A DNA stretch of 64,000 nt, from assembly GCF_014645795.1 (NCBI RefSeq), contig NZ_BMMK01000027.1:1-64000 (forward strand), given 5' to 3'. Below the pieces are notes generated by a model. That model was not told the DNA's origin, did not search any database, and saw only the letters and a list, made by a program, of their open reading frames with translations. The position numbers and the translations under genes are program-made. Source of the DNA: Longimycelium tulufanense (GTDB lineage: Bacteria > Actinomycetota > Actinomycetes > Mycobacteriales > Pseudonocardiaceae). Below are positions 6,400 to 31,440 of this stretch, one piece after another (positions within the stretch are counted from its first letter, which is position 1; every line of letters starts with the position of its first letter).

Positions 6400-7588
6400 G
6401 TGCCGCACATTCGGGTCCTCGAGCCCCACGAGTACGAGGTCGCAGTCGCGCTGTTCCTGCGTAGCCTGCACCACAAGCCGCTCGGGGACGAGCACCGGGA
6501 GTTCGTGCGACTGTCCACTCAGGACGGTCGCCAGCTGGGTGCGTTCGAGGGCGGCGAGCTGATCGGCACCGCCTACAGCTTCGGGAGCGCGCTCGCCGTG
6601 CCGGGCGGCGCGGCGGTGCCCATGGCGGCGGTGACCCGGGTGGGTGTGCGTGCGGACCACACGCGGCGCGGGGCACTGACCGCGCTCATGCGCGGGCAGC
6701 TGGCCCGGTGTCGTGATCTGGGGGGAGCCGATCGCGACCCTGCGTGCCAGTGAGCCGGGCATCTACGGCCGTTTCGGGTACGGTGTCGCCAGCCGCTTCC
6801 GCGTCGTCGAGGTACGGCCGGGCACAGTGGCGGACGCCGTTCCCCGGGACGGTCAGGTCCGCCTGCTGGAGCCCGCGGAGTTCGAGAAGCGGGTGCGGGA
6901 GGTTTACGACCGCATCGGCCTGTCGCGGCCAGGGATGATCGCTCGGCCGGATTCCTGGTGGGCGCGTTACCGGCACCGGCTCGCCACCGGGGACAACCTC
7001 GTCGCGGCGGTGCACACCGGTGACGACGGGGACGACGGTTTCGTCGTGTGGGAACCCAAGCCGGGCACGTCCTGGCTGACACACCAACTGCAGGTCGCGG
7101 ACCTGCATGCCGCGAACCCCTCCGCGCTGGCCACCCTGTGAGCGTTCCTGCTCGGGGTCGACCTGTCCGACGGGGTTGAGGCACGGCGGCCGCTGGACGA
7201 GCCCCTGGAGTGGATGCTGGCCGACCGCGACACGGTGCGCACCACCGGGCTGAAGGACGAGACCTGGCTGCGGTTGGTCGACGTCGAGACCGCGCTGTCC
7301 GTGCGGAGCTGGGGTGCGGCCGAACCGGTGGTCCTGGAGGTGCGGGACGGCGTCCTGCCGGAGAACCAGGGCTGCTATCGGATTGGCGGGGACGGGGTGA
7401 CGCGGGTCGACACCGAGCCCCACCTCGGGCTGGACGTCGCGGACCTCGGCGCGCTGTACCTCGGCGACGTGCGACCGTCCACGCTGGCTGCAACCGGCCG
7501 AGTCGTCGTCCACGATCCCGCCGCCCTGGCCCTGGCCGATCGTCTGTTCGCCACCGACGTCGTTCCCTGGTCAGGAACCGGATTCTGA
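6400..7588 (+). pseudogene. broken Eis-family GNAT N-acetyltransferase
   Basis: The reading frame resembles the Eis family (acetyl-CoA-dependent acetyltransferases of lysines and aminoglycosides) but has two lesions. From the GTG at 6400 it reads correctly to a run of six G at 6720-6725. One G too many there shifts it out of frame, and the family sequence GEPIATLRASEPGIYGRFGYG continues in another frame. A TGA at 7139-7141 then stands where a Trp codon (TGG) is expected, before AFLLGVDLSDGV. Removing one G and restoring TGG gives 395 residues, close to the family length of about 400. The acetyl-CoA site (VTRVGVRADHTRRG) is in the first part and the last part ends at 7588. The gene is inactive as written. 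Two lesions of different kinds favour real decay over a single base-calling error. Confidence 0.8.
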
Positions 7589-7810
7589 AAGTCCACTGTG
7601 GATGTCGGGGTGCCGTGCCTGGGGGTCGGCGCCCCGGCCCTGCCCTGCCCGGACGAAGGTGTGAGCACCGCGGGGAAGCCGGGCCGGAAATGACACACCG
7701 AAGACCCCTGCCGGATCTTCCAACGAGGGACCAACCTCTCCCATCATAGGGAACGGCTTGATCACCACAGGTCGCGCAATCATGCGGCGCAGCCGACACC
7801 GGAGGTCCAC

Positions 7811-8164
7811 GTGCACATCGCCACCATCGTCCTGTCCATCCTGCTCGCGCTGGCATTTCTCGCCATCGGCGGTCCGAAGGCGCTGGCCCTGGAGTCCGCT
7901 ACGCGGCGGACCGTGGAGATGGGGTTGGACACCAGAATGATGCGTTTGACCGGAATACTCGAGGTTGCTGCGGTGGTGGGTCTGGTGGCCGGCTTGTGGG
8001 TGAGGTGGTTGGGGCTGGCTGCTGCGGTCGGTCTCGTGCTTCTGATGCTCGGCGCGCTCGTGTTCCACGCCCGCAGGGGGGACCCGGCGAAGCAAATGGC
8101 TCCTGCCGCGGTGTTCCTGGTGCTCTCCGGTGCCCTGGTCACCACGGGGCTGCTGTCGCAATGA
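7811..8164 (+). CDS. DoxX-like small integral membrane protein
   Basis: The product has 117 residues and four hydrophobic segments (about 4-22, 45-63, 65-86, 97-115), the layout of DoxX-like proteins. It starts at GTG with CCGGAGG upstream. Some DoxX proteins take part in respiratory or oxidative-stress complexes, but the branch seen here is uncharacterised and no catalytic residue can be pointed to. It is alone between the broken acetyltransferase and the biosynthetic operon. The 222 bp before it hold no gene. Confidence 0.7.
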   Translation: MHIATIVLSILLALAFLAIGGPKALALESATRRTVEMGLDTRMMRLTGILEVAAVVGLVAGLWVRWLGLAAAVGLVLLMLGALVFHARRGDPAKQMAPAAVFLVLSGALVTTGLLSQ

Positions 8165-8868
8165 GCGGGCAGATGGCGTAGTCAACCGATTCTCCGTAAA
8201 GGAGAGAAGCGCGTCGCCGCGGGCTGTCGCAGCTGGCAGCGACGCGCGCGGCGACCTTGCCCACCGTTGAGCTGTGATCCGCTGGGAGCGCTTCGCTCCG
8301 CCGCGTGTCAGGTTGTCGAGTGCTGCCCGACCGCGGCACAGGAGGCACCGGGGCGGACTGTTGTTCCGCCTGCGGTGCTGACCACGTCCGCAGGAAGCCT
8401 CAATCGGGGCAATGGTCTTCCCAGTGCTGACGGATCTTCCGAGTGGCAGGGAGCAGTCCGGTGCCCGCTCCATGATGCTTACGTCAAATAGCTGCCATGG
8501 GCCGATACCTGACGGCGATGGAGGAGATCATCGTTCTTCTGCTGGTTGTTCCTGCATCTGCACCCCCGGATTCGGCTACAAGAAGGCAAGCTCGCGGTTT
8601 CGCTGTTACGTCGATTTGGTCGAACTGGTGAGATTCACCCGGCCAGCCGTCGTCCGGAGGTGTGGGCGTGTGCGACCTTGGGTCGGAGCAGCCATGTCTT
8701 GGATGGGGGAGTGGCAGGTTTGCCCTGGGGCAAGGAAGATCCGTTGCTCAAGTACGCCATAACTCCTCGATGCCGTTTCGGCACGTCTGCCGTGCGGGGA
8801 TGCACCTGCCTGCCAGGGTGAGTCGGTGTGCCCCCGCAGACGCGGCGGAAACGTTGGAGAAAGGAACA
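8165..8868 (+). other. 704-bp stretch without a supported gene
   Basis: This region in front of the biosynthetic operon is visibly less GC-rich than its surroundings, especially around 8500-8650. Several short open frames exist on both strands, but none combines a ribosome-binding site, normal codon usage and a recognisable product. The open frame of the A-T-TE gene extends back to 8662, yet codons 8662-8868 lack actinobacterial codon bias, so I read them as upstream DNA. It probably holds the operon's promoter, which I could not place. Confidence 0.5.
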
Positions 8869-11616
8869 ATGATCGGACTTGGCCACAGTGGTGGCGAGAT
8901 ACCTACGGTGACCGACCTACTGTTCCGCGCCGCCGAAACCTGTCCGCACGCGAACGTTCGCCACATTGCCGACGACAATCTCGATCATTCGGTGGTTCGG
9001 ACCTACCCGGCGCTGGTGGACGAGGCGCTTCACCTGCTCGGTGGCCTGCGCACCAGGGGGCTGCGGCCGGGCGACACCGTCGCACTCCTTCTGGAGCGGC
9101 TGCAGGACTTCGTCCCCGCGTTCTGGGCGTGTGTCCTGGGTGGCTTCGTGCCGTGCCCACTGACCCCGCCGACCGACAGCAGCGAGTTGCCGGCCCGGCT
9201 CGACCATCTCAACGGACTGCTGGCCGGTCCACTGCTGGTCACCACCGCCGACCTGCAGCGCACGCTGCCGGCAACCGAGCTCGTGACCGCGTCCGTGGCG
9301 GAGCTTTCGGCCAACGCTCGGGAAACCACCGTGCACCGGGCGCGCCCCGAGGAAGTTGCACTCCTCATGCTCACCTCCGGCTCCACGGGAAGCGCGAAGG
9401 CCGTCAGGCTCACGCATCACAACCTGCTGGCCTCGCTGCGCGGAAAGACCGGGCGACTGGAGGTGACCGCACGCGACGTCACCCTGAACTGGGTCCCCTT
9501 CGACCACATCGCCGCGGTGGAGTTCCACCTGATGCCGCTGTATGCGGGCGCACCGCAGATCCAGGTCGAACCGCAGGTGATCCTGGGAGACCCGCTGCGG
9601 CTGCTCCGGCTGGTCGACACGCATCGGGTGACGATGACCTTTGCCCCGAACTTCCTGCTCGCCCAGATCGTCAAGGCGGTGGCGCGAGGCGGGCACCGTC
9701 CCGTCGAGCTGTCGTCGCTGCGTCACCTCATCTCCGGTGGAGAGGCCGTAGTGTGTGCCACGGCGCGAGACTTCCTCGATCGGCTGGCGCGGTTCGGGCT
9801 TGCCCGGAACGCGCTGGTGCCGGCCTTCGGCATGACCGAGACCTGTGCCGGGAGTGTCTTCTCCACGCAATTCCCCGACGTCGACGCCGGGCTGGAGTTC
9901 GCCTCGCTGGGGCTACCCATAGCAGGGCTGCAGATGCGCATCGTCGACGACAACGACGTGCCACTGGCTGACGGGGAAGCCGGTGACCTCCAGGTACGCG
10001 GACCGATGGTCTTCGACGGCTATCTCGACAACGACGAGGCCAACCGGGCCGCCTTCACCACCGACAGCTGGTTCCGCACCGGCGACCGCGGAGAGATCCA
10101 CGATGGACGGCTGAGCCTGGTCGGACGCGGCAAGGACAGCATCATCGTCAACGGGGTCAGCTACTACAGCCACGACCTGGAGACGGTGCTCGAGCGGATG
10201 GAGGGGGTCGAAGCCTCCTCCGTGGCCGCGTTCCCGACCCGGAGGCGACACGGCGACACCGAGCAACTCGTCGTCGTCTTCAGCCCGCGCGCTCCCTTCC
10301 GGGACGACACCGCACTGCGGCGCCTGCTCAGCGCCATCCGGGACCGGGTGGTCCTGCACTGGGGGTTCCGCCCGGCGCTCGTCCTGCCGTTGCCGAGTTC
10401 CACGATTCCCCGCACCAGCCTGGGCAAGATTCAGCGCTCCCGGCTGCGGCAGTGGCTGGAGGCCGGGGACCTCGCTCGCCACGTCGACCGGGTCGGCGCG
10501 CTGCTGCAGGGCCGGCCCGACGACCACCGGGCACCCGACACCGAGACCGAGGTGGTGCTGGCCGACGTCTACGCCGAGGTTTTCGGACTCGAACCGGGCG
10601 CGGTCAGCGCCACGGCGAATTTCCTCGACCTGGGCGGCACCTCACTGGAGATTCTTCGGCTCAAACGCCGCGTGGAGCAGCGGTTCGGAATGCGGGACCT
10701 GCCGATGTCGTGGCTGCTTCGGGCACCGACGGTCCAGGACCTGGCCGGCCACCTGGACGCCCACCCCACCGCCCAGGACTACGACCCGCTCGTTCCACTC
10801 CAGCGCAGCGGGCACAAGACCCCGCTGTTCTGCGTGCATCCCGGGGTGGGAGAGGTCCTGGTGTTCGTCAACCTCGCCACGTGCTTTGCCAACGAGCGGC
10901 CGTTCTACGCGCTGCGCGCCCGCGGCTTCGGAGCGGGCGAGAGCTACTTCAGCAGCTTCGCCGAGATGGTCGACTGCTACGTACGGGCGATCCGCGCCGA
11001 GCAGCCCACCGGACCCTATGCCGTCGCCGGCTACTCCTACGGCGGGGTGGTGGCGTTCGAGATCGCCAAGGAACTGGAGGCGACGGGAGAGCGGGTCGCG
11101 TTCCTCGGCATCCTCAACATCCCGCCGCGCATCAGACACCGGATGCACGAGCTGGACTTCACCGAGGGCGCGGTCAACCTCGCGTTCTTCCTGTCCCTGG
11201 TCAGCAGGGAACAGGCCGCGGAGCTCCCGCGGCAGCTGCGGGACGGCCTGTCCCGACAGGAACAGCTGAAACACCTTCTGGAGCTGGCACCACAGCGACG
11301 GCTGAACGAGCTGGACCTCGACCCGGACAAGTTCGCCGCCTGGGTCGAGGTGGCCCAGTCGTTGGTGCGCCTGGGCCGTACCTACGAGCCGAGCGGAACG
11401 GTCAGGTCCGCCAGCGTCTTCTACGCCGAACCCCTGCGCGGCACGAAGCAGGAGTGGCTGGACACCCAGATCAGGGAATGGGACACGTTCGCGCGGCAGC
11501 CGAACCGGTACATCGAGGTGCCCGGCGAGCACTACACCCTGATGGGAACCAGGCACCTGGCCACCTTCCACGACATCCTCCGCAAGGAGCTGGACCTGGT
11601 GTTGGGCGAGGACTGA
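8869..11616 (+). CDS. A-T-TE arylpyruvate condensing enzyme (terphenylquinone/furanone synthetase type)
   Basis: This is a 915-residue single-module NRPS-like enzyme with no condensation domain. The adenylation domain spans about 1-545: LTSGSTGSAKAV at 168-179, FGMTE at 320-324, TGD at 404-406, and the catalytic Lys of LGKIQ at 520. The NWVPFDH stretch after motif A3 is, as I recall, typical of atromentin/polyporic acid synthetases. A carrier domain follows (about 555-630) with the phosphopantetheine Ser592 in GGTS. Last comes a thioesterase (about 645-915) with Ser723 in GYSYG and a late His in GEHYTLM. Such A-T-TE enzymes load two arylpyruvates and condense them to a quinone or furanone. 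The start at 8869 is chosen because GGAGAAAGGA precedes it. Downstream genes follow closely in one operon. The substrate (phenyl-, 4-hydroxyphenyl- or indolepyruvate) cannot be decided by eye. Confidence 0.85.
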   Translation: MIGLGHSGGEIPTVTDLLFRAAETCPHANVRHIADDNLDHSVVRTYPALVDEALHLLGGLRTRGLRPGDTVALLLERLQDFVPAFWACVLGGFVPCPLTPPTDSSELPARLDHLNGLLAGPLLVTTADLQRTLPATELVTASVAELSANARETTVHRARPEEVALLMLTSGSTGSAKAVRLTHHNLLASLRGKTGRLEVTARDVTLNWVPFDHIAAVEFHLMPLYAGAPQIQVEPQVILGDPLRLLRLVDTHRVTMTFAPNFLLAQIVKAVARGGHRPVELSSLRHLISGGEAVVCATARDFLDRLARFGLARNALVPAFGMTETCAGSVFSTQFPDVDAGLEFASLGLPIAGLQMRIVDDNDVPLADGEAGDLQVRGPMVFDGYLDNDEANRAAFTTDSWFRTGDRGEIHDGRLSLVGRGKDSIIVNGVSYYSHDLETVLERMEGVEASSVAAFPTRRRHGDTEQLVVVFSPRAPFRDDTALRRLLSAIRDRVVLHWGFRPALVLPLPSSTIPRTSLGKIQRSRLRQWLEAGDLARHVDRVGALLQGRPDDHRAPDTETEVVLADVYAEVFGLEPGAVSATANFLDLGGTSLEILRLKRRVEQRFGMRDLPMSWLLRAPTVQDLAGHLDAHPTAQDYDPLVPLQRSGHKTPLFCVHPGVGEVLVFVNLATCFANERPFYALRARGFGAGESYFSSFAEMVDCYVRAIRAEQPTGPYAVAGYSYGGVVAFEIAKELEATGERVAFLGILNIPPRIRHRMHELDFTEGAVNLAFFLSLVSREQAAELPRQLRDGLSRQEQLKHLLELAPQRRLNELDLDPDKFAAWVEVAQSLVRLGRTYEPSGTVRSASVFYAEPLRGTKQEWLDTQIREWDTFARQPNRYIEVPGEHYTLMGTRHLATFHDILRKELDLVLGED

Positions 11617-11627
11617 ACGGAGCGTCG

Positions 11628-12548
11628 TTGTCCACCAAGAAGATCCTGATCACCGGAGCGACCGGTCAGGTGGCACGGCGGGCAGCCGAGGACCTGGCGA
11701 AGGACAACGAGGTGTGGTGCCTGGCCCGGTTCACCGACCCCCGCATCGAACGCGAGCTGGCCGCAGGTGACATCCGAACGTGGCGCTGGGACATGGACGG
11801 GGGCACCCTCGAAGGATTGCCCGACGACTTCACCCACGTCATGCACGCGGCCGCCTATCGGGGCGACGGTACCGACTTCGAGGCCGCGGTCACGATGAAC
11901 TCACTTGCCACCAGCCGGCTCATGACCCACTGCCACCACGCGGAGTCGTTCCTTTTCGTCTCGACGGGTGCGGTCTACGCGCGCAAGGCGCGCGATCATC
12001 GCTATGTCGAGACAGATCCGCTGGGCCGGCGCATGGGGTGGCTGCCCACCTACCCGGTCAGCAAGATCACCGCTGAGGCCACGGTGTGCGCCTTCTCCGC
12101 GACGTTGGATCTGCCGGCAACGATTGCACGACTGAACGTTGCATACGGCCCACACGGCCACGGTGGGATGCCCGTAGCGCTGTTCCGACGGATGCTGGCC
12201 GGCAGGCCCATCGAGGTTCCACATGAGGGGAGCGACTGGTGCAACCCCATCCACACCGACGACGTGGCGCGACAGGTCCCCTTGCTGTGGGAGGCGGCCG
12301 CGGTCCCGGCGCGAATGGTGAACTGGGGAGGTGACGAGATGGTCAGCATCCAGGACATGATGACCTTCGCCTCGGAGATCACCGGTGTGCCGGTGACATT
12401 TCTGCCCAGCGCGGTGACTCGGGAGACGGACGCCTTCGACAACAGCCTCCGCCGAGCCCTCATCGGGAACTGCGCGGTGAGCTGGCGGGATGGGCTGCCG
12501 CCAACGCTGCGGGCCCACGTTCCCACCGTGAGAGGCTCAGGCGCCTGA
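11628..12548 (+). CDS. extended SDR, NAD-dependent epimerase/reductase-like
   Basis: The 306-residue protein has an N-terminal Rossmann fold with GATGQVA at about 10-16 and the SDR catalytic pair Tyr142/Lys146 in YPVSK, plus an upstream STGAV strand carrying the catalytic Ser/Thr. It begins at TTG, with GGAG five bases upstream and 11 bp after the synthetase, so it is co-expressed. In echoside and terfestatin p-terphenyl pathways a ketoreductase of this general fold acts with a small dehydratase on the diarylquinone. By position and fold this gene could take that role. That is inference. It could also act on an aglycone side chain or a sugar. Confidence 0.8.
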   Translation: MSTKKILITGATGQVARRAAEDLAKDNEVWCLARFTDPRIERELAAGDIRTWRWDMDGGTLEGLPDDFTHVMHAAAYRGDGTDFEAAVTMNSLATSRLMTHCHHAESFLFVSTGAVYARKARDHRYVETDPLGRRMGWLPTYPVSKITAEATVCAFSATLDLPATIARLNVAYGPHGHGGMPVALFRRMLAGRPIEVPHEGSDWCNPIHTDDVARQVPLLWEAAAVPARMVNWGGDEMVSIQDMMTFASEITGVPVTFLPSAVTRETDAFDNSLRRALIGNCAVSWRDGLPPTLRAHVPTVRGSGA

Positions 12549-12620
12549 CATGGCCCCAGTCGCATACCAGTGTCGCCCGTGTCGGGCGAATCTCGCGAAC
12601 ATGGAGGGCGAGGAGCCGGA

Positions 12621-14069
12621 ATGACGACCAACGCCGACATCATCCGGGCCTCCTATTCGGCGTTCCGTCGCGGCGACCTCGAGGGCGCACTCGCCGACTT
12701 CGCACCGGACGTCGAGTGGACCCACCCGAACGGGATGAACGAATACGGCCTGGGTGGTACGAAGCAGGGGCACCGCGAAGTCCGGTCGTTCATGGCCCGC
12801 GCCCGAACCGTCTTCAGTGAGATACGGCCCGAGCCGCACGAGTTCGTAGAGTCCGGTGACCGCGTCATCGTGCTGGGCACCCACCACATGCGGGGTGCGC
12901 GCAGCGGCGTGGCCGGCACCGTACGGTTCGTGCACTCCTGGCGGCTGGCCGGCGGTAAGGTAACCCACTTCGAGGACCACCACGACACCGCCGATGTCCG
13001 TCGGATCGTGGAACCGCAGACCGCGGCCAGCGACCCGTGCGCGGATATCATCCAGCGGGGCCTGGGATTCTGGAGCGCGAAGGTCCTCCTCGCCGCGGTC
13101 GAGCTCGGAGTTTTCACCGAACTGGCTCGCCAGCCCCTCGACGCGGCAGAGCTACGGTCCCGGCTCGGTGTGCACGAGCGGGGAGCGCGGGACTTCTTCG
13201 ACGCTCTGGTGTCGTTCGGCCTGCTCGACCGTGACGATGAGCAGTACCGCAACACACAAGCCACCCAGGTGTTCCTGAACCGGAACCAGCCCGAGACCTA
13301 CATCGGCGGTCTCTTCGAGGTGGCCGACCAGTACTGGTACCGGTCATGGGAAAACCTGGTCACGGCACTGCGCACCGGCGTTCCACAGAACAACACCGCC
13401 AAAGGTACGACCGACCCGTTCCAGGTGCTCTACGCGGACCCCGCACGGGTGCGGCAGTTCCAACGCGCGATGACCGGTGGCGCGATGCCGGCCAGCATGG
13501 CGCTTGTCGAGAGATTTCCCTGGACCAGGTACCGGACGGTGGCCGATGTCGGCTGCGCGGAGGGAGCGTTGCTCGGCCGCCTGTTACGGCGGTACCCACA
13601 CCTCACCGGCGTTGGTTTCGATCTTCCTCCGGTTGCTCCCACCTTCCAGGAGACGGCGGCACGACTCGGGTTGACCGATCGTATGCGCTTCGTCGACGGC
13701 AACTTCTTCACCGACTCACTGCCACCCGCCGACGTCGTCGTCTACGGTCACGTGCTGCACGACTGGGATCTCGACGGCAAACGTCTGTTGCTGGGCAAGG
13801 CATATGACGTACTACCGGTGGACGGTGTGGTCGTGATCTATGAGACGTTGATCGACGATGAGCGTCGACGAAGCACCGCCGGTCTTCTCATGAGCCTGCA
13901 CATGCTCCTGGAGAGCCCCGGGGGGTTCGACTACACCGGCGCCGACTGCATGCGATGGCTGGACGAGGCCGGATTCCACGACTGTCGGGTTGAGCATCTG
14001 GCAGGACCGGACTGGATGATCGTCGGCACCAAGCCGAGGAACGGGACGGGTTCCGATGATGCGCGATGA
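12621..14069 (+). CDS. SnoaL/NTF2-like domain fused to SAM-dependent O-methyltransferase
   Basis: The 482-residue protein has two parts. Residues 1-130 form a SnoaL/NTF2-like domain (an ADIIRASYSAFRRGD helix, the EWTHP strand, the FVHSWRLAGGKV strand). Residues 140-480 form a caffeic-acid/hydroxyneurosporene-type O-methyltransferase: a winged-helix dimerisation region, SAM motif VADVGCAEG from residue 307, and the GHVLHDWD motif with the probable catalytic His. GAGGAG precedes the ATG chosen here. In p-terphenyl clusters a separate NTF2-fold dehydratase works with a reductase. Here the corresponding domain is joined to the methyltransferase, which could couple dehydration of a reduced quinone to methylation of the new phenol. 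The gene overlaps the next by 14 bp, so translation is coupled. Confidence 0.85.
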   Translation: MTTNADIIRASYSAFRRGDLEGALADFAPDVEWTHPNGMNEYGLGGTKQGHREVRSFMARARTVFSEIRPEPHEFVESGDRVIVLGTHHMRGARSGVAGTVRFVHSWRLAGGKVTHFEDHHDTADVRRIVEPQTAASDPCADIIQRGLGFWSAKVLLAAVELGVFTELARQPLDAAELRSRLGVHERGARDFFDALVSFGLLDRDDEQYRNTQATQVFLNRNQPETYIGGLFEVADQYWYRSWENLVTALRTGVPQNNTAKGTTDPFQVLYADPARVRQFQRAMTGGAMPASMALVERFPWTRYRTVADVGCAEGALLGRLLRRYPHLTGVGFDLPPVAPTFQETAARLGLTDRMRFVDGNFFTDSLPPADVVVYGHVLHDWDLDGKRLLLGKAYDVLPVDGVVVIYETLIDDERRRSTAGLLMSLHMLLESPGGFDYTGADCMRWLDEAGFHDCRVEHLAGPDWMIVGTKPRNGTGSDDAR

Positions 14070-15090
14070 GCAACGGTACGAGGACGGCGGGCAGCACGAC
14101 GGAGCAATGCGACTGCTGGAGCTGCACGACTACTTCCTTCAAGCCAGAGCGATCCAACTCGCGGCCGAACTCGGCATCGCCGACCTACTGGCCGACGGGC
14201 CGCAGAGTGTCGGCCATCTTGCCGCCGCCACCTCGACCGACCGGGATGCGCTACACCGCCTGCTGCGGACTCTCACCGGGTGCGGGATTTTCGCCGGGAC
14301 AGCATCGGGAGACTACGAGCTGACAGCGATGGGGGCTCATCTCCGCCGCGACCACCCACGCTCCGTGCGGTCGTTCATGGTCCTGGGCGGGACGTTCGTG
14401 GGGGTCTTCGTCGACGCCATGCACAGCCTGCGCACCGGCAACGCAACGTTTTCGCAGACCTACGGTGAACCGTTGTTCTCCCACCTCCGCCATCACCCAG
14501 ACCGGCAGTCCCTCTTTGATGCCGCGATGGCCGACCTCAGTCGGCTGGAAAGCGACGCGGTGCTCAACACCTACGACTTCACCCGGGCACGAACCATCGT
14601 GGACGTCGGCGGTGGGGACGGCAGCCTGCTCAGCGCGATCCTGCTCCGATACCGGGAGGCGAGGGGCGTCATCTTCGACCAACCGCACGTCGCCGCAGCC
14701 GCGGACAACGGGATCGTCGCCAGTGGCCTCACCGGACGCTGCACGTTCGCGGCCGGGGACTTCTTCGAAAGCGTCCGCCCCGGTGGGGATCTGTACCTGT
14801 TGAAATCAATCGTCCACGACTGGCCCGACGAGCAGGCACTGACGATCCTGCGCAACTGCCGCCGGGCGATGGGTCCCCACGGCCGGCTCCTGCTCATCGA
14901 ACGTGTGCTCCCGGCCAACGACGCCCCGCACCCGAGCAAGACCATGGACTTCGCCATGCTCGTCCTGCTCGGTGGCCGGGAGCGCACCGGCGACGAGTAC
15001 GCCGCGCTGTGCGGTCAGGCCGGGCTCCGCCTCGACCGGGTCATCGGCACCAGCACACCCTCGAGCATCCTCGAGGTCTACCCGGCCTGA
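14056..15090 (+). CDS. SAM-dependent O-methyltransferase
   Basis: A 344-residue O-methyltransferase of the same family as the C-terminal part of the preceding gene, but without a fused N-terminal domain. It has the winged-helix dimerisation region (about 15-100), SAM motif VDVGGGDGS from residue 182, and the catalytic-His motif SIVHDWPDE. The ATG at 14056 overlaps the end of the preceding gene and a second in-frame ATG follows at once. It is the last gene of the operon. Together with the fused enzyme it suggests two O-methylations of a phenolic product. The acceptor is unknown. Confidence 0.88.
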   Translation: MMRDEQRYEDGGQHDGAMRLLELHDYFLQARAIQLAAELGIADLLADGPQSVGHLAAATSTDRDALHRLLRTLTGCGIFAGTASGDYELTAMGAHLRRDHPRSVRSFMVLGGTFVGVFVDAMHSLRTGNATFSQTYGEPLFSHLRHHPDRQSLFDAAMADLSRLESDAVLNTYDFTRARTIVDVGGGDGSLLSAILLRYREARGVIFDQPHVAAAADNGIVASGLTGRCTFAAGDFFESVRPGGDLYLLKSIVHDWPDEQALTILRNCRRAMGPHGRLLLIERVLPANDAPHPSKTMDFAMLVLLGGRERTGDEYAALCGQAGLRLDRVIGTSTPSSILEVYPA

Positions 15091-15460: not shown

Positions 15461-17026
15461 ATGGCCGCGGGCGCACGGGCAACGGACGAGCAACCGGACC
15501 ACCAGGTCGCGATCATCGGTACCGGCTTTGCCGGCCTCGGGATGGCGATCCGGCTCAGGCAGGCCGGCTGCGACGACTTCGTGGTGCTGGAGAAGGCCGG
15601 TGAGGTGGGGGGCACCTGGCGGGACAACACCTACCCGGGGTGCGCCTGTGATGTGCCGTCCCACATGTACTCCTTCTCCTTCGACCTCAACCCCTCCTGG
15701 TCCCGGATGTACGGCCGGCAGGAGGAGATCTGGGACTACCTGCGACGGTGCACCGACAAGTACGGAGTTCGTCCGCACATCCGGTTCCACTCCGAGGTGG
15801 TCTCGGCCCGGTTCGACGAGGACGCCTGTCTCTGGCGCCTGGGCACGGCCGACGGCCGCGACCTCACCGCCCGCGTCCTCGTGGCCGGTGTCGGTCCGCT
15901 GCACGTGCCCGCCTATCCGGACGTTCCCGGCCTGGCCCGGTTCCAGGGCGTCACGTTCCACTCCTCGCAGTGGAACCACGACTACGACCTGACCGGCAAG
16001 CGGGTCGCCGTCATCGGCACCGGTGCCAGCGCGATCCAGTTCGTGCCCCAGATCGCGCGGCAGGTCGAGCAGCTGCACCTGTTCCAGCGCACCCCGCCGT
16101 GGATCATGCCCAAGCCCGACCGCCGGATGCGGTCGGGGATCAAGCACCTGTTCGCGAGGTTCCCGTTGGCGCAGCGGCTGTTGCGCAACACGCTCTACTG
16201 GATGCTGGAGGGCCAGCTGCTGGCCTTCAACGGCGACAAGCGGCTCATGAAGATGGGCGAGGCGATGTCCCGGCAGCACATCGCGCGCCAGATCCGCGAC
16301 CCCGAGCTCCGCAAGGCGGTCACCCCGAAGTACACGATGGGCTGCAAGCGCGTGCTCATCTCCAACGACTACTACCCGTCGCTCGCCCGGCCCAACGTCG
16401 AGCTGGTCACCGACGGGATCCGCGAGGTCCGCGAGCACTCGGTGGTCACCGCCGACGGGGCGGAGCGGGAGGTCGACGCCATCATCTACGGCACCGGCTT
16501 CAAGATCGGTGACTTCAACTCGACGAAGATCTTCGGGGCCGGTGGGGTCGAGCTGAGCGAGCTGTGGCGCCGCGAAGGCATGGAATCCTACAACGGCGTG
16601 GTCACCGCCGGGTTCCCCAACATGTTCATGCTGGTTGGGCCGAACACCGGGCTCGGCCACAACTCGATCGTGTTCATGATCGAATCCCAGGTCCATTACG
16701 TGTTGCGCTGCCTGGAGCTGATGGACCGCCACGGGGCCCAGCAGCTCGCGGTACGCCCGGAGGTACAGCGCCGGTTCAACCGGGCGATCCAGAGCCGGAT
16801 GAAGAACTCGGTGTGGCAGTCGGGGTGCAAGAGCTGGTACCTCGACGAGAACGGGGTGAACCGGACGCTGTGGCCCGGCTTCACGTTCACCTACTGGGCC
16901 CGGCTGCGCCGGGCGCGCGCCGCCGACTTCGACCTGGTCAGCCGCAACACCCAGGAACCGGTGCGACGGCTGCTGCCCACGGAACCGGTCCGAGAGTGGG
17001 AGCGGGTGCCGGCCGGAGCGCGCTGA
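15461..17026 (+). CDS. flavin monooxygenase, Baeyer-Villiger type
   Basis: The 521-residue enzyme contains the FAD-binding GTGFAG at 20-25, the NADPH-binding Rossmann motif VIGTGASA around 184-191, and between them the Baeyer-Villiger fingerprint FxGxxxHxxxW at 161-171 (Phe161, Gly163, His167, Trp171). Class B flavoprotein monooxygenases of this kind insert oxygen next to a carbonyl or oxidise heteroatoms, using NADPH and O2. The start at 15461 has GGGAGG upstream. The gene follows the biosynthetic operon in the same direction but has its own promoter and palindrome. It may tailor the product, or it may be an unrelated ketone-degrading enzyme under its own repressor. Confidence 0.88.
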   Translation: MAAGARATDEQPDHQVAIIGTGFAGLGMAIRLRQAGCDDFVVLEKAGEVGGTWRDNTYPGCACDVPSHMYSFSFDLNPSWSRMYGRQEEIWDYLRRCTDKYGVRPHIRFHSEVVSARFDEDACLWRLGTADGRDLTARVLVAGVGPLHVPAYPDVPGLARFQGVTFHSSQWNHDYDLTGKRVAVIGTGASAIQFVPQIARQVEQLHLFQRTPPWIMPKPDRRMRSGIKHLFARFPLAQRLLRNTLYWMLEGQLLAFNGDKRLMKMGEAMSRQHIARQIRDPELRKAVTPKYTMGCKRVLISNDYYPSLARPNVELVTDGIREVREHSVVTADGAEREVDAIIYGTGFKIGDFNSTKIFGAGGVELSELWRREGMESYNGVVTAGFPNMFMLVGPNTGLGHNSIVFMIESQVHYVLRCLELMDRHGAQQLAVRPEVQRRFNRAIQSRMKNSVWQSGCKSWYLDENGVNRTLWPGFTFTYWARLRRARAADFDLVSRNTQEPVRRLLPTEPVREWERVPAGAR

Positions 17027-29384: not shown

Positions 29385-30898
29385 TCATCCAAGCGGTTCT
29401 CGGATCCGCTCGGTGGTCGATGCCGGGCCGTCTGCCGCCCCCGAGCCGGCCGGTTCGACGACGCGGAACTCGACAATCGAGCCGCCGGCAGGTAGCAGGG
29501 AGCAGGATCCGAGTGTCAGCCCCGCCCGGGCGGCGAGGTCACCGAGGTGCGCCAGGGTGCGTTTTCCGCCGCCGGTGAGTACGAGCATGCGCAGGTCGTG
29601 CGCGGTGGCCACGCGACGGTCGACGCTCGCCGTGGGCGAGTCGTGGGTGTCCTCGCCCATCAGCCTCTCGGCGACGAGCACGCGGTTGCCGGCACCGGCC
29701 GCCTCGGCGCAGCGACGCAGCAACACAGTGGCGTGCTCGTCGTTCCAGTCCGCGATGACGCGCGAGAGCAGGTACACGTCACCGCCGGGGGGCAGCGCGG
29801 AGAACATGTCCGCCACGACCACGTCGGTACGGTCCGTCAGGCCCTGGTCGGCCAAATACTGTCGTGCCTGTGCCGCGGTTCCGGCCTGGTCCACCACGGT
29901 GCCGCGAAGAGGTGGGGATGAGCCAGCAGGATCTCGGCGAGCACGGCTCCGGTGCCCCCGCCAACGTCGACGACGCGGCGCACGCCGCTCCAGTCATACC
30001 CCTGGGCGACCCCGTCGGTCGAGCGCGGTACCTCGGCCATCAGCCGGTCGAAGGCTCGGGTGCGCTCCGGATCGGCGGCGAGATCGCTCCAGAACGGCAG
30101 CCCGTGCACCGACACGTACGCGGGTCCCGCGGTGCGGATGCTCTCGGTCAGCCGCGGATACGTGGCCTCCAGCCGGCCGGCGATTCCCTCGGCGTCCAGC
30201 CACTGCCACCACCCGGAGGGATGGTCCCGGGTGAGCAGACGTGCGGTGGGTGTCAACCCGTACGCCTCGGGGGAGGATTCGACGAAGACACCACGGCAGG
30301 CCAGGAACTGCAACAGACGTCGGAGCGCGTGCGGGTCGGCACCGGCCGCTTCTGCGAGACCTGCCAGCCCGACGGTGCCCGACGCGATGTGGTCGGCCAG
30401 ACCCAGTGCCACCGCGGCGCGGATCGCGAAGGGCGTCAGCGCGTCAGTGAGCGCCTGAAGCTGTCGGTCGGGGTCGGCGTCGACATGACCGGGCACCACG
30501 GGTGCGATGGCCTCGCCCTCACCGTGGCCGGTGCCGGCTGGCTGGGTGACCGCCCACCGGTGGCCGTCCAGATCGGCCACCACGTAGCTACGGTCGCCGT
30601 TCGGGTGCCCGAAAGGCTCGGTCAGGATCTGTGCCCCGGCGTGCCTGGCGCGTTCGTGGTGGGAGTCCACCTTCTCGACGGAGAGGTGCTGAAGCTGGTG
30701 AACGTGCCCGCGTGGCCCCACATAGCCGGGACCCCCGTCGGCGATCGAGACAACGGCGTCGTTCCATGCCAGGTCGACGCGGTCGAGGTCACCGTCGTCA
30801 TTCACCTTCCGGTTGATTTCGCGAAAGTTGAAAGCCCGCTGGTACCAGTCCAGTGCCGCCGCCACGTCGGACGAGTACAGCTGGAGCGCGATGCCCAT
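29385..30898 (-). pseudogene. frameshifted fusion of a VOC domain and an O-methyltransferase
   Basis: The N-terminal 120 residues form a glyoxalase/VOC domain (start ALQLYSSDVAAALDWYQRAF, end DLDGHRWAVTQP). Then comes an O-methyltransferase like those at 12.6-15.1 kb: winged helix, SAM motif VVDVGGGTG, then VIADWND and the RMLVLTGGGKRT region. Near 29900-29911 the frame shifts: HPHLF is followed in another frame by GTVVDQAG. One missing base would restore 504 residues. GGGGAGGAG precedes the ATG. If intact, it would be a second methyltransferase in this window with an extra small N-terminal domain. The VOC part could bind metal or substrate. Confidence 0.7.
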
Positions 30899-31032
30899 CG
30901 TTGGTGGTCTCCTCCCCGTAGTGCGGTGGTATGTCGTTTGCGCCTCCGACGGGGCAATCGTGCGGTAGGTCGGTGATGACGTCATAGGTGACGTCTCGGC
31001 GCACGGAACAGTTCCTCTGGTGCGTGGCAAGA

Positions 31033-31239
31033 TCAGCCACACGCCAGCGCCGGCTTTGTTGGAATCGAAATACTCCATACTGGTTTTGACAGTGCCGTTG
31101 CCGGAAGTTTTCGGCTGACGTGGTGGAGTGCGGGGACGGCCAGAAGGATGAGGCCGGTGAGGGCCAGCGAAAGCGCCGCGTTGCCGAGGGCGAGCAGCTG
31201 GCGAACAATGCCGGCGCGCTGACCGAGGAGACGCCCCAC
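31033..31239 (-). CDS. small membrane peptide heading the minus-strand operon
   Basis: The 68-residue product starts at GTG with AGGAG at the right distance. It has a basic N-terminus (MGRLLGQRAGIVRQ), one hydrophobic helix (about 18-40) and a polar Ser/Lys/Pro tail ending in Cys-Gly. Codon usage is normal for the organism. It lies 134 bp before the VOC-methyltransferase start and an imperfect palindrome stands just upstream. No family recognised. A membrane anchor or a precursor peptide are both possible, with no direct evidence for either. Confidence 0.45.
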   Translation of the reverse strand: MGRLLGQRAGIVRQLLALGNAALSLALTGLILLAVPALHHVSRKLPATALSKPVWSISIPTKPALACG

Positions 31240-31259
31240 GCTCGCTCCTAGTCGATCTT

Positions 31260-31274
31260 GTACCAAATTTGTAC
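31260..31274. promoter_or_regulatory. imperfect palindrome upstream of the minus-strand operon
   Basis: GTACCAAATTTGTAC has 7-bp arms with one mismatch. It is AT-rich in a GC-rich background and lies 20 bp before the small membrane peptide start, reading left, and 173 bp before lpdA. It could be an operator or the promoter core. Confidence 0.35.
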
Positions 31275-31434
31275 GGAAGCCCCTGGATGGGGCGGTTCGC
31301 CGGTCGCACGGGCCCATCCCGGTCACCGTCGGAAGGGCCTGGGACGTGTCCGGCCGTCGCCCCGCGCTCGTCTGGGTGAGGCGCGACGAGGATGGGGCGG
31401 ACCACCGGAACCGGCGCGAGCCGGGGCCGGAACA

Positions 31435-31440
31435 TATGGT
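31435..31440 (+). promoter_or_regulatory. -10 of a leaderless lpdA promoter
   Basis: TATGGT ends six bases before the lpdA ATG, and no Shine-Dalgarno sequence is present. This fits transcription starting at the initiation codon. Confidence 0.5.

Follow-up and report, generated by a model that had tools for sequence, protein, structure and literature searches.

Gene content and organization of the operon

We analysed a candidate p-terphenyl operon within a 64,000-nucleotide stretch of the genome of Longimycelium tulufanense (contig NZ_BMMK01000027.1, positions 1 to 64,000; hereafter the window). The operon comprises positions 8869-15090 of the plus strand. Its four genes encode an adenylation-thiolation-thioesterase (A-T-TE) enzyme resembling a non-ribosomal peptide synthetase (NRPS), an extended short-chain dehydrogenase/reductase (SDR), a fusion of an NTF2/SnoaL domain with an O-methyltransferase (OMT) domain termed OMT1, and a second methyltransferase termed OMT2 (Table 1). 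An initial annotation, made from the DNA letters alone, had described four tightly spaced genes on one strand, and all of them were located as claimed: if the SDR is counted from the TTG codon at 11628, the successive genes are 11 bp and 72 bp apart and the last two overlap by 14 bp. The two separate O-methyltransferase domains of that annotation were both confirmed by Pfam.

The operon is more than a chance arrangement, because the fusion recurs in four other genomes of the host's family (57-64% identity over nearly the whole length) and the four-gene order recurs in locus L101 (prefixes L and G denote the loci and genomes used for comparison). L101 belongs to another family than the host and shows an order identical to that of the window, with identities of 61% for the A-T-TE enzyme, 67% for the SDR, 74% and 64% for the NTF2 and methyltransferase domains of the fusion and 53% for OMT2. 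A chance fusion or an assembly artefact was rejected, as the reading frame of the fusion is uninterrupted and its sequence conserved in L019, L020, L079, L101 and L080.

Table 1. Coordinates of the operon, its domains and further features discussed in the text.
Feature	Position	Strand	Evidence and remarks
A-T-TE enzyme (NRPS-like), presumed diarylquinone synthetase	8869..11616	+	915 aa; Pfam domains; ATG preceded by GGAGAAAGGAACA
Extended SDR, TerB/EchB-like reductase	11628..12548	+	predicted TTG start; frame open from 11613
Fusion of NTF2/SnoaL (TerC-like) and COMT-type methyltransferase	12621..14069	+	482 aa, single open frame; Pfam
NTF2/SnoaL domain of the fusion	12621..13016	+	3ebt 142 bits, TerC 127 bits; site comparison
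RedM-type methyltransferase domain (OMT1) of the fusion	13029..14066	+	RedM 371 bits; catalytic-type His380; trees
Second COMT-type O-methyltransferase (OMT2)	14056..15090	+	344 aa; PF00891 E=6e-50; His254
DoxX_2-like membrane protein, possible fifth cluster gene	7811..8164	+	PF13564 E=1e-22; putative pathway link
NTF2-methyltransferase fusion, cyclodipeptide synthase and nitroreductase-family protein	L080 (genome G390) 7289-10902

The A-T-TE enzyme and the SDR

The A-T-TE enzyme matches the Pfam families for AMP-binding (E=1e-53), carrier (E=1e-12) and thioesterase (TE; E=2e-28) domains, and all motif residues are present, namely Lys520 of A10, the carrier Ser592, and Ser723 and His888 of the TE domain. 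It is 53-62% identical to A-T-TE enzymes adjoining TerB-like SDRs. The solved adenylation (A) domains closest to its own are those of McyG (383 bits) and the 6ulw/6ulx chains, which we take to load aryl or keto acids. A one-residue deletion in motif A4 is shared by all seven A-T-TE enzymes of operons with a fused NTF2 domain and by those of L109 and L110; it is missing from the other 27 of the 32 enzymes in the first alignment and from L108. In the window enzyme the residue before A5 differs as well. The partial sequence of L035 was excluded from the A-T-TE trees. In the last of these, L109 and L110, for which no NTF2 domain is shown, fall inside the group of the fused operons, which cuts against the story of a single fusion. 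In the Sphaerisporangium locus L042 a prephenate dehydrogenase gene overlaps the stop codon of the fusion by 4 bases, which is only a hint of 4-hydroxyphenylpyruvate as substrate. No prephenate dehydrogenase was found among the window frames scanned with Pfam.

The SDR (Pfam Epimerase, E=2.5e-24) lies directly downstream of the A-T-TE gene, as do TerB/EchB-type SDRs in the ech/ter/dat-type clusters. TerB (6d2v, 6nd7) is by far its best solved match, with 381 bits over residues 3-304 and 57% identity; the next other protein reaches 62 bits. The catalytic motif is represented by Ser117, Tyr147 and Lys151 (numbered from 11613), and just upstream of the TerB-like TTG start a GGAG was read by eye. 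In the SDR trees the window SDR stands beside, not within, the TerB branch, and the SDRs of the fused and of the OMT-only operons are likewise placed outside it.

The fused NTF2 domain and its presumed active site

The fusion contains the Pfam domains SnoaL_2 (residues 8-116), Dimerisation (140-220) and Methyltransf_2 (243-452). Among solved proteins, the NTF2 domain ranks 3ebt, which we take to be BPSS0132 of the Burkholderia pseudomallei operon, before TerC (Table 1) and 22ow (97 bits). His88, Arg91, Asp119 and His121 of the fusion correspond to TerC chain positions 143, 146, 173 and 175, which are used as numbering in the following. Arg143 and Asp173 of TerC were reportedly found critical in a 2021 study of TerB and TerC; chain 6d34 has Arg and Asp at these positions. 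The standalone proteins from 22 loci together with TerC and 3ebt carry Arg, Thr, Asp and Phe at the four positions (24 of 24). In the eight fused genome domains, i.e., those of seven operons and of genome G390, position 143 is His in five, Tyr in two and Leu in one, position 146 is Arg in seven and Cys in one, and positions 173 and 175 are Asp and His throughout. The corresponding residues of 22ow are Arg, Arg, Asp and His. The weakly related NTF2 proteins 3fgy and 3ec9 of the PDB also lack Arg143, as read by eye. A standalone TerC/EchC-type dehydratase with Arg143 and Asp173 is accordingly not matched in the window, where the domain is fused, the Asp kept and the Arg replaced by His.

All eight fused domains retain the GLGGT stretch. 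Among the fused proteins, identity to the window protein amounts to 61-74% in the NTF2 domain and 58-65% in the methyltransferase domain; the NTF2 domain is therefore conserved as well as its partner and not decaying. The rebuilt pocket argues against a plain identity with TerC and the conservation of the domain against a dead relic. In the NTF2 tree the fused domains and 22ow are found on one side of a branch (100/99, and 100% of 200 bootstrap trees), so that they represent related sequences rather than independent events.

The methyltransferase domains

RedM and 22ow match the fused methyltransferase domain equally well (371 bits), and 22ow_A, itself an NTF2-methyltransferase chain, matches the fusion over its full length with 470 bits. 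As a crystallised chain of this composition exists, the domain pairing alone is not new. In contrast to the fusion, 22ow keeps Arg143 and is devoid of the WTHP and GLGGTK stretches and of the COMT His. The closest solved match of OMT2 is 6c5b (275 bits), presumably the phenazine O-methyltransferase LaPhzM. Both window methyltransferases are composed of Dimerisation and Methyltransf_2 domains and have kept the catalytic His like COMT-type enzymes (Table 1), whereas RedM has no NTF2 match and is described as lacking the catalytic His (PMC10784701).

OMT2 shares 53% identity with the gene located downstream in L101, and 56% with the NTF2-fused methyltransferase domain of L042 and L102. In the OMT tree the L042/L102 domain groups with window OMT2 (96/88) and then with the protein of L101 (100/99), whereas the RedM-type domains lie at a large distance, and the grouping of the L042/L102 domain with window OMT2 was stable in both OMT trees, the first of which included L042 alone. 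In the first tree a single group (95/98) united the OMT1 fusions with 22ow and also included L009, where NTF2 is absent; after addition of four rows this group was no longer resolved in the second tree. Both the placement of L009 and the loss of resolution cut against a neat single fusion event. That RedM-type methyltransferases usually have an NTF2 neighbour was excluded by a search of 24 loci, many of them with only about 1.5 kb of flanking sequence. NTF2 matches beside such methyltransferases were restricted to L080, to L054, which coincides in location with L020, and to L064, where the gene is oppositely oriented.

Distribution of related operons

A scan of genome contigs for TerB-like proteins, based on a 3-sequence alignment and two short peptide patterns and not to be taken as a census, yielded 29 loci. 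L046 from an archaeal metagenome-assembled genome (23% identity) was dropped as no true relative. The remaining 28 loci comprise 18 with A-T-TE enzyme, SDR and standalone NTF2 protein, seven with A-T-TE enzyme, SDR and OMT, and three with NTF2-methyltransferase fusions. Two of the OMT-only loci, L018 (9926-12460) and L044 (9935-12411) of Streptomyces, code for an A-T-TE enzyme, an SDR, an O-methyltransferase and an FAD aromatic hydroxylase, and an NTF2 gene was not found there. This gene set is a separate terphenyl-type layout; the hydroxylase was checked in these two of the seven loci only. Two findings from other genera concern parts of the set. On a plasmid of Burkholderia stagnalis (L005, 7475-11479) only an OMT2-like methyltransferase adjoins the A-T-TE gene, perhaps as a minimal methylated-diarylquinone operon. 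TerB-like SDRs of 41-43% identity are encoded on three Sphingobium plasmids (L053, 5974-6933, and two others), whose records contain no A-T-TE match at E≤1e-60; they perhaps belong to a broader reductase family acting on quinones or aryl compounds.

In an even sample of the class, with the five best candidates per genome scored, a TerB-like SDR (E≤1e-60) was present in 13 of 394 genomes including the host's own. Three of the 12 other genomes were already part of the TerB-like scan. The 12 include two fusions (L101 and L102), four standalone NTF2 proteins, one OMT-only locus and three SDRs with no A-T-TE match in the 16-18 kb fetched. In the remaining loci, L109 and L110 (genomes G1130 and G1137), A-T-TE enzyme and SDR are followed by a protein of about 660 aa with a C-terminal aminotransferase domain, and a carbamoyltransferase is encoded nearby in L109. 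Within the host's family, six of 390 genomes, the host included, gave an SDR match at E≤1e-50; near the SDRs of G184 and G206 (about 40% identity) no A-T-TE, NTF2 or methyltransferase match was found. The same number of genomes (6 of 390, own included) gave a fusion match at E≤1e-90 starting at residue 6 or before, with the four best candidates per genome scored. One of them, G208 (44% identity, two internal stops), contains a standalone methyltransferase with no NTF2 match and was dropped, which leaves five genomes. In a sample of the phylum, a match of fusion strength (E≤1e-125) was obtained in one of 396 genomes, the window's own. Duplicates were left out (L082/L083 are L019/L020; L106, L107 and L112 were counted as L030, L028 and L021).

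Taken together, a fused NTF2 domain occurs in seven A-T-TE/SDR operons. Five of them (window, L101, L079, L019 and L020) possess the RedM-type methyltransferase domain, and two (L042 and L102) an OMT2-type domain. A second methyltransferase of OMT2 type was not shown in L079, L019 and L020. In L042 and L102 the chain runs from the end of the NTF2 domain straight into an OMT2-like start. The simplest history suggested by these sequences would be an ancestor with an NTF2-OMT1 fusion next to OMT2 and, in the line of L042 and L102, a later deletion by which NTF2 became attached to OMT2; the trees do not decide on it. In L079 (6126-14655, minus strand, genome G261) the genes for A-T-TE enzyme, SDR and fusion are followed by those for an EryCIII-type glycosyltransferase, a YceI-domain protein and a MycE-type methyltransferase; relatives of the window operon may hence make glycosylated products. 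For the window itself the initial annotation had noted the absence of a glycosyltransferase, in line with the 37 window frames scanned with Pfam, among which there was none (some frames were listed at E≤1e-8 only).

Comparison with known systems

The ech, ter and dat clusters of Streptomyces (EchABC, TerABC and DatABC) share with the window an A-T-TE enzyme, a TerB-type SDR and a TerC-type NTF2 domain in the same order. The window differs by the fusion of the NTF2 domain to a methyltransferase, by the loss of Arg143 and by the second methyltransferase downstream. Loci of the ech/ter/dat layout, which stand for these clusters in our comparison, have a standalone NTF2 protein, in which Arg143 and Phe175 are present, and the flanks examined contain no gene resembling OMT1 or OMT2; in one of them, L004, an annotated methyltransferase is located about 7 kb away. 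DatA and EchA convert phenylpyruvate to polyporic acid, and the dat strain produces terferol, betulinan A and other O-methylated p-terphenyls, with no methyltransferase among the genes that the text names (PMC9379647). Such products are therefore normal for the family.

A second point of comparison is the four-gene operon BTH_II0204-0207 of Burkholderia thailandensis and B. pseudomallei, annotated as NRPS, dehydratase, isomerase and methyltransferase and called unknown in nature (PMC6481063). A p-terphenyl congener bears the name 'BTH-II0204-207: D' (PMC9379647), BPSS0130 is labelled 'putative terphenyl' (PMC9821509), and induction of a terphenyl cluster is reported for B. thailandensis, with no mention of BTH_II0204-0207 (PMC7042699). 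The four functions agree with those of the window by description, and on sequence through 3ebt only. As described, the operon has no fusion and one methyltransferase, whereas in the window NTF2 and methyltransferase domain share one frame of 482 aa. The statement of the initial annotation that the gene set corresponded to no known cluster is thus not borne out, given the description of this operon and the identical gene order of L101.

The echoside pathway employs a pair of cooperating enzymes for the reduction and dehydration of polyporic acid to a trihydroxy-terphenyl, the triol (PMC12105029). The closest parallel to the route proposed below is the alf pathway to allantofuranone in the fungus Allantophomopsis lycopodina, in which an A-T-TE enzyme supplies polyporic acid, reductive dehydration yields the triol and O-methylation terferol. 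The bifunctional AlfC unites reduction and dehydration. The triol reoxidises or dimerises unless AlfD acts, and with its methylation to terferol by AlfD the dimeric shunt products vanish (PMC12105029). Apart from its fungal origin, this pathway, which was compared by description only, differs from the window in that AlfC carries out both steps, AlfD is a separate enzyme and a ring-cleaving dioxygenase comes next. Literature searches for an NTF2/SnoaL-methyltransferase fusion and for a methyltransferase linked to polyporic acid in Streptomyces, judged by titles and abstracts and with most subscription journals outside their range, gave no description of such an operon. The kind of cluster is already known; the occurrence of the fusion within a terphenyl operon, its site pattern and the exchange of domains had no counterpart in the papers that these searches reached.

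Proposed pathway and alternative explanations

The assignment to p-terphenyl biosynthesis, already contained in the initial annotation, is borne out by the relatives of TerB and TerC beside the A-T-TE gene. With moderate confidence we regard the gene set as a p-terphenyl operon in which a single make-and-cap enzyme forms an intermediate and methylates it; the product would be a p-terphenyl of terferol type and may be doubly methylated. The A-T-TE enzyme would activate two aryl-pyruvates and join them into a 2,5-dihydroxy-3,6-diarylbenzoquinone, i.e., polyporic acid, or atromentin if 4-hydroxyphenylpyruvate is the substrate. After reduction of the quinone by the TerB-like SDR, the fused NTF2 domain would remove water to form 2',3',5'-trihydroxy-p-terphenyl, and the methyltransferase domain of the same chain would at once methylate this oxygen-sensitive triol to a terferol-type compound, to which OMT2 would attach a second methyl group. 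By analogy, the steps up to the triol would follow reactions known for relatives, and its methylation one known in a fungus. We infer the substrate, the capping in cis and the methylation sites, and the altered pocket (Arg143 lost, His175 gained, Asp173 kept) would presumably still dehydrate. The instability of the unmethylated triol in the alf pathway would explain why a dehydratase is joined to a methyltransferase, and the stabilising O-methylation there makes the make-and-cap enzyme the best reading. The recurrence of the gene order in L101 and the catalytic His of both methyltransferases also speak for it.

Several observations weigh against this reading. The rooted tree places the window A-T-TE enzyme outside the branch of ech-type and Burkholderia enzymes (98/99). 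A position outside the arylpyruvate-dimerising clade had been named in the initial annotation as a refutation, and this point is only half answered: homology over the full length and every motif are present, but the position in the tree and the A4 deletion leave an aryl substrate putative. Arg143 is replaced in all eight fused genome domains, so that dehydration may be changed or lost. In the seven Streptomyces loci with A-T-TE enzyme, SDR and OMT, no NTF2 gene was found; tblastn with several queries up to E=10 gave scattered weak matches only (best E=0.03). An AlphaFold model of the fusion, calculated with three sequences, had a mean predicted local distance difference test (pLDDT) score of 45.5 and was discarded as too poor. 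Finally, the fusion of G390 with the same site pattern adjoins a cyclodipeptide synthase, in a genome that yielded neither an A-T-TE match (E≤1e-60) nor a TerB-like SDR (E≤1e-50). This context implies that the fusion is not tied to terphenyls; it probably serves as a module for several kinds of scaffold and may act on a diketopiperazine in G390. As a sign of terphenyl biosynthesis, the site pattern of the NTF2 domain loses weight through this fusion, and 22ow retains Arg143.

The loss of Arg143 together with the change of Phe175 to His is equally the starting point of a different explanation, in which the methyltransferases act on the quinone, giving a betulinan-type dimethoxy-diarylbenzoquinone, or on the reduced product of the SDR. 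The NTF2 domain would then have ceased to be a dehydratase and would hold the substrate or act in some other way. The seven OMT-only loci among 28 and the B. stagnalis operon suggest that such operons can methylate without having a dehydratase, and the dat strain makes betulinan A along with terferol (PMC9379647). Asp173 and GLGGT are, however, retained in all eight fused domains, and a dead domain should drift, whereas this one is as conserved as the methyltransferase. We consider this explanation improbable, yet of appreciable weight. Alternatively, the SDR alone could carry out the whole reductive dehydration and the NTF2 domain serve the methyltransferase. AlfC is a precedent for uniting both steps (PMC12105029), and the position of the SDRs of fused and OMT-only operons outside the TerB branch would fit; the window SDR is, on the other hand, 57% identical to TerB, the partner of TerC, and we hold this for distinctly unlikely. 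A-T-TE enzymes form several core ring types, and the window enzyme, outside the characterised branch and with a deletion in the pocket region, could in principle make a furanone or butenolide, similar to ralfuranone or microperfuranone, as the substrate of O-methylation. The deletion is located in the A domain and not in the TE domain, and the adjoining TerB and TerC relatives act on terphenylquinones, not on furanones, which leaves very little probability for such a product.

Beyond the make-and-cap operon, a further-reaching proposal is possible, although we put it forward with more doubt than conviction. The fusions may be a new bifunctional dehydratase-methyltransferase that caps a reactive hydroquinone without releasing it and has a pocket with Asp-His instead of Asp-Arg. 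Dehydration by another route or at another position than in TerC would then lead to a p-terphenyl pattern not made by the ech, ter and dat systems, and the L042/L102 line would have exchanged its methyltransferase half for that of its neighbour. If this is true, the exchange would move the methyl group.

Further features of the window

The DoxX_2-like gene upstream of the operon shares 54% identity with a DoxX_2 gene that immediately precedes the A-T-TE gene in L101, and no match at E≤1e-4 was present in the other 12 loci searched. From its same place in L101 the cluster may begin upstream of 8869. Downstream of the operon, at 15461-17026 of the plus strand, an FMO-like flavoprotein is encoded with the sequence FQGVTFHSSQW, which in our view resembles a Baeyer-Villiger fingerprint. 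Genes for a MarR regulator and an OsmC protein come next; a search of 13 other loci gave no match to this stretch at E≤1e-4. On the minus strand (29385-31435) a glyoxalase/VOC domain is followed by a COMT-type methyltransferase, whose halves lie in different frames with a break near 29.85-29.9 kb, a broken gene or an assembly error.

Implications

p-Terphenyls are bioactive, and the operons supply methyltransferase candidates for O-methylated products such as those of the dat strain. The contrast at positions 143 and 175 between all 24 standalone and all eight fused domains makes the TerC mechanism directly testable, and the NTF2-OMT1 and NTF2-OMT2 fusions represent a natural domain-swap experiment. 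The fusion would be a natural case of an unstable intermediate that is protected by joining its maker to its capper.

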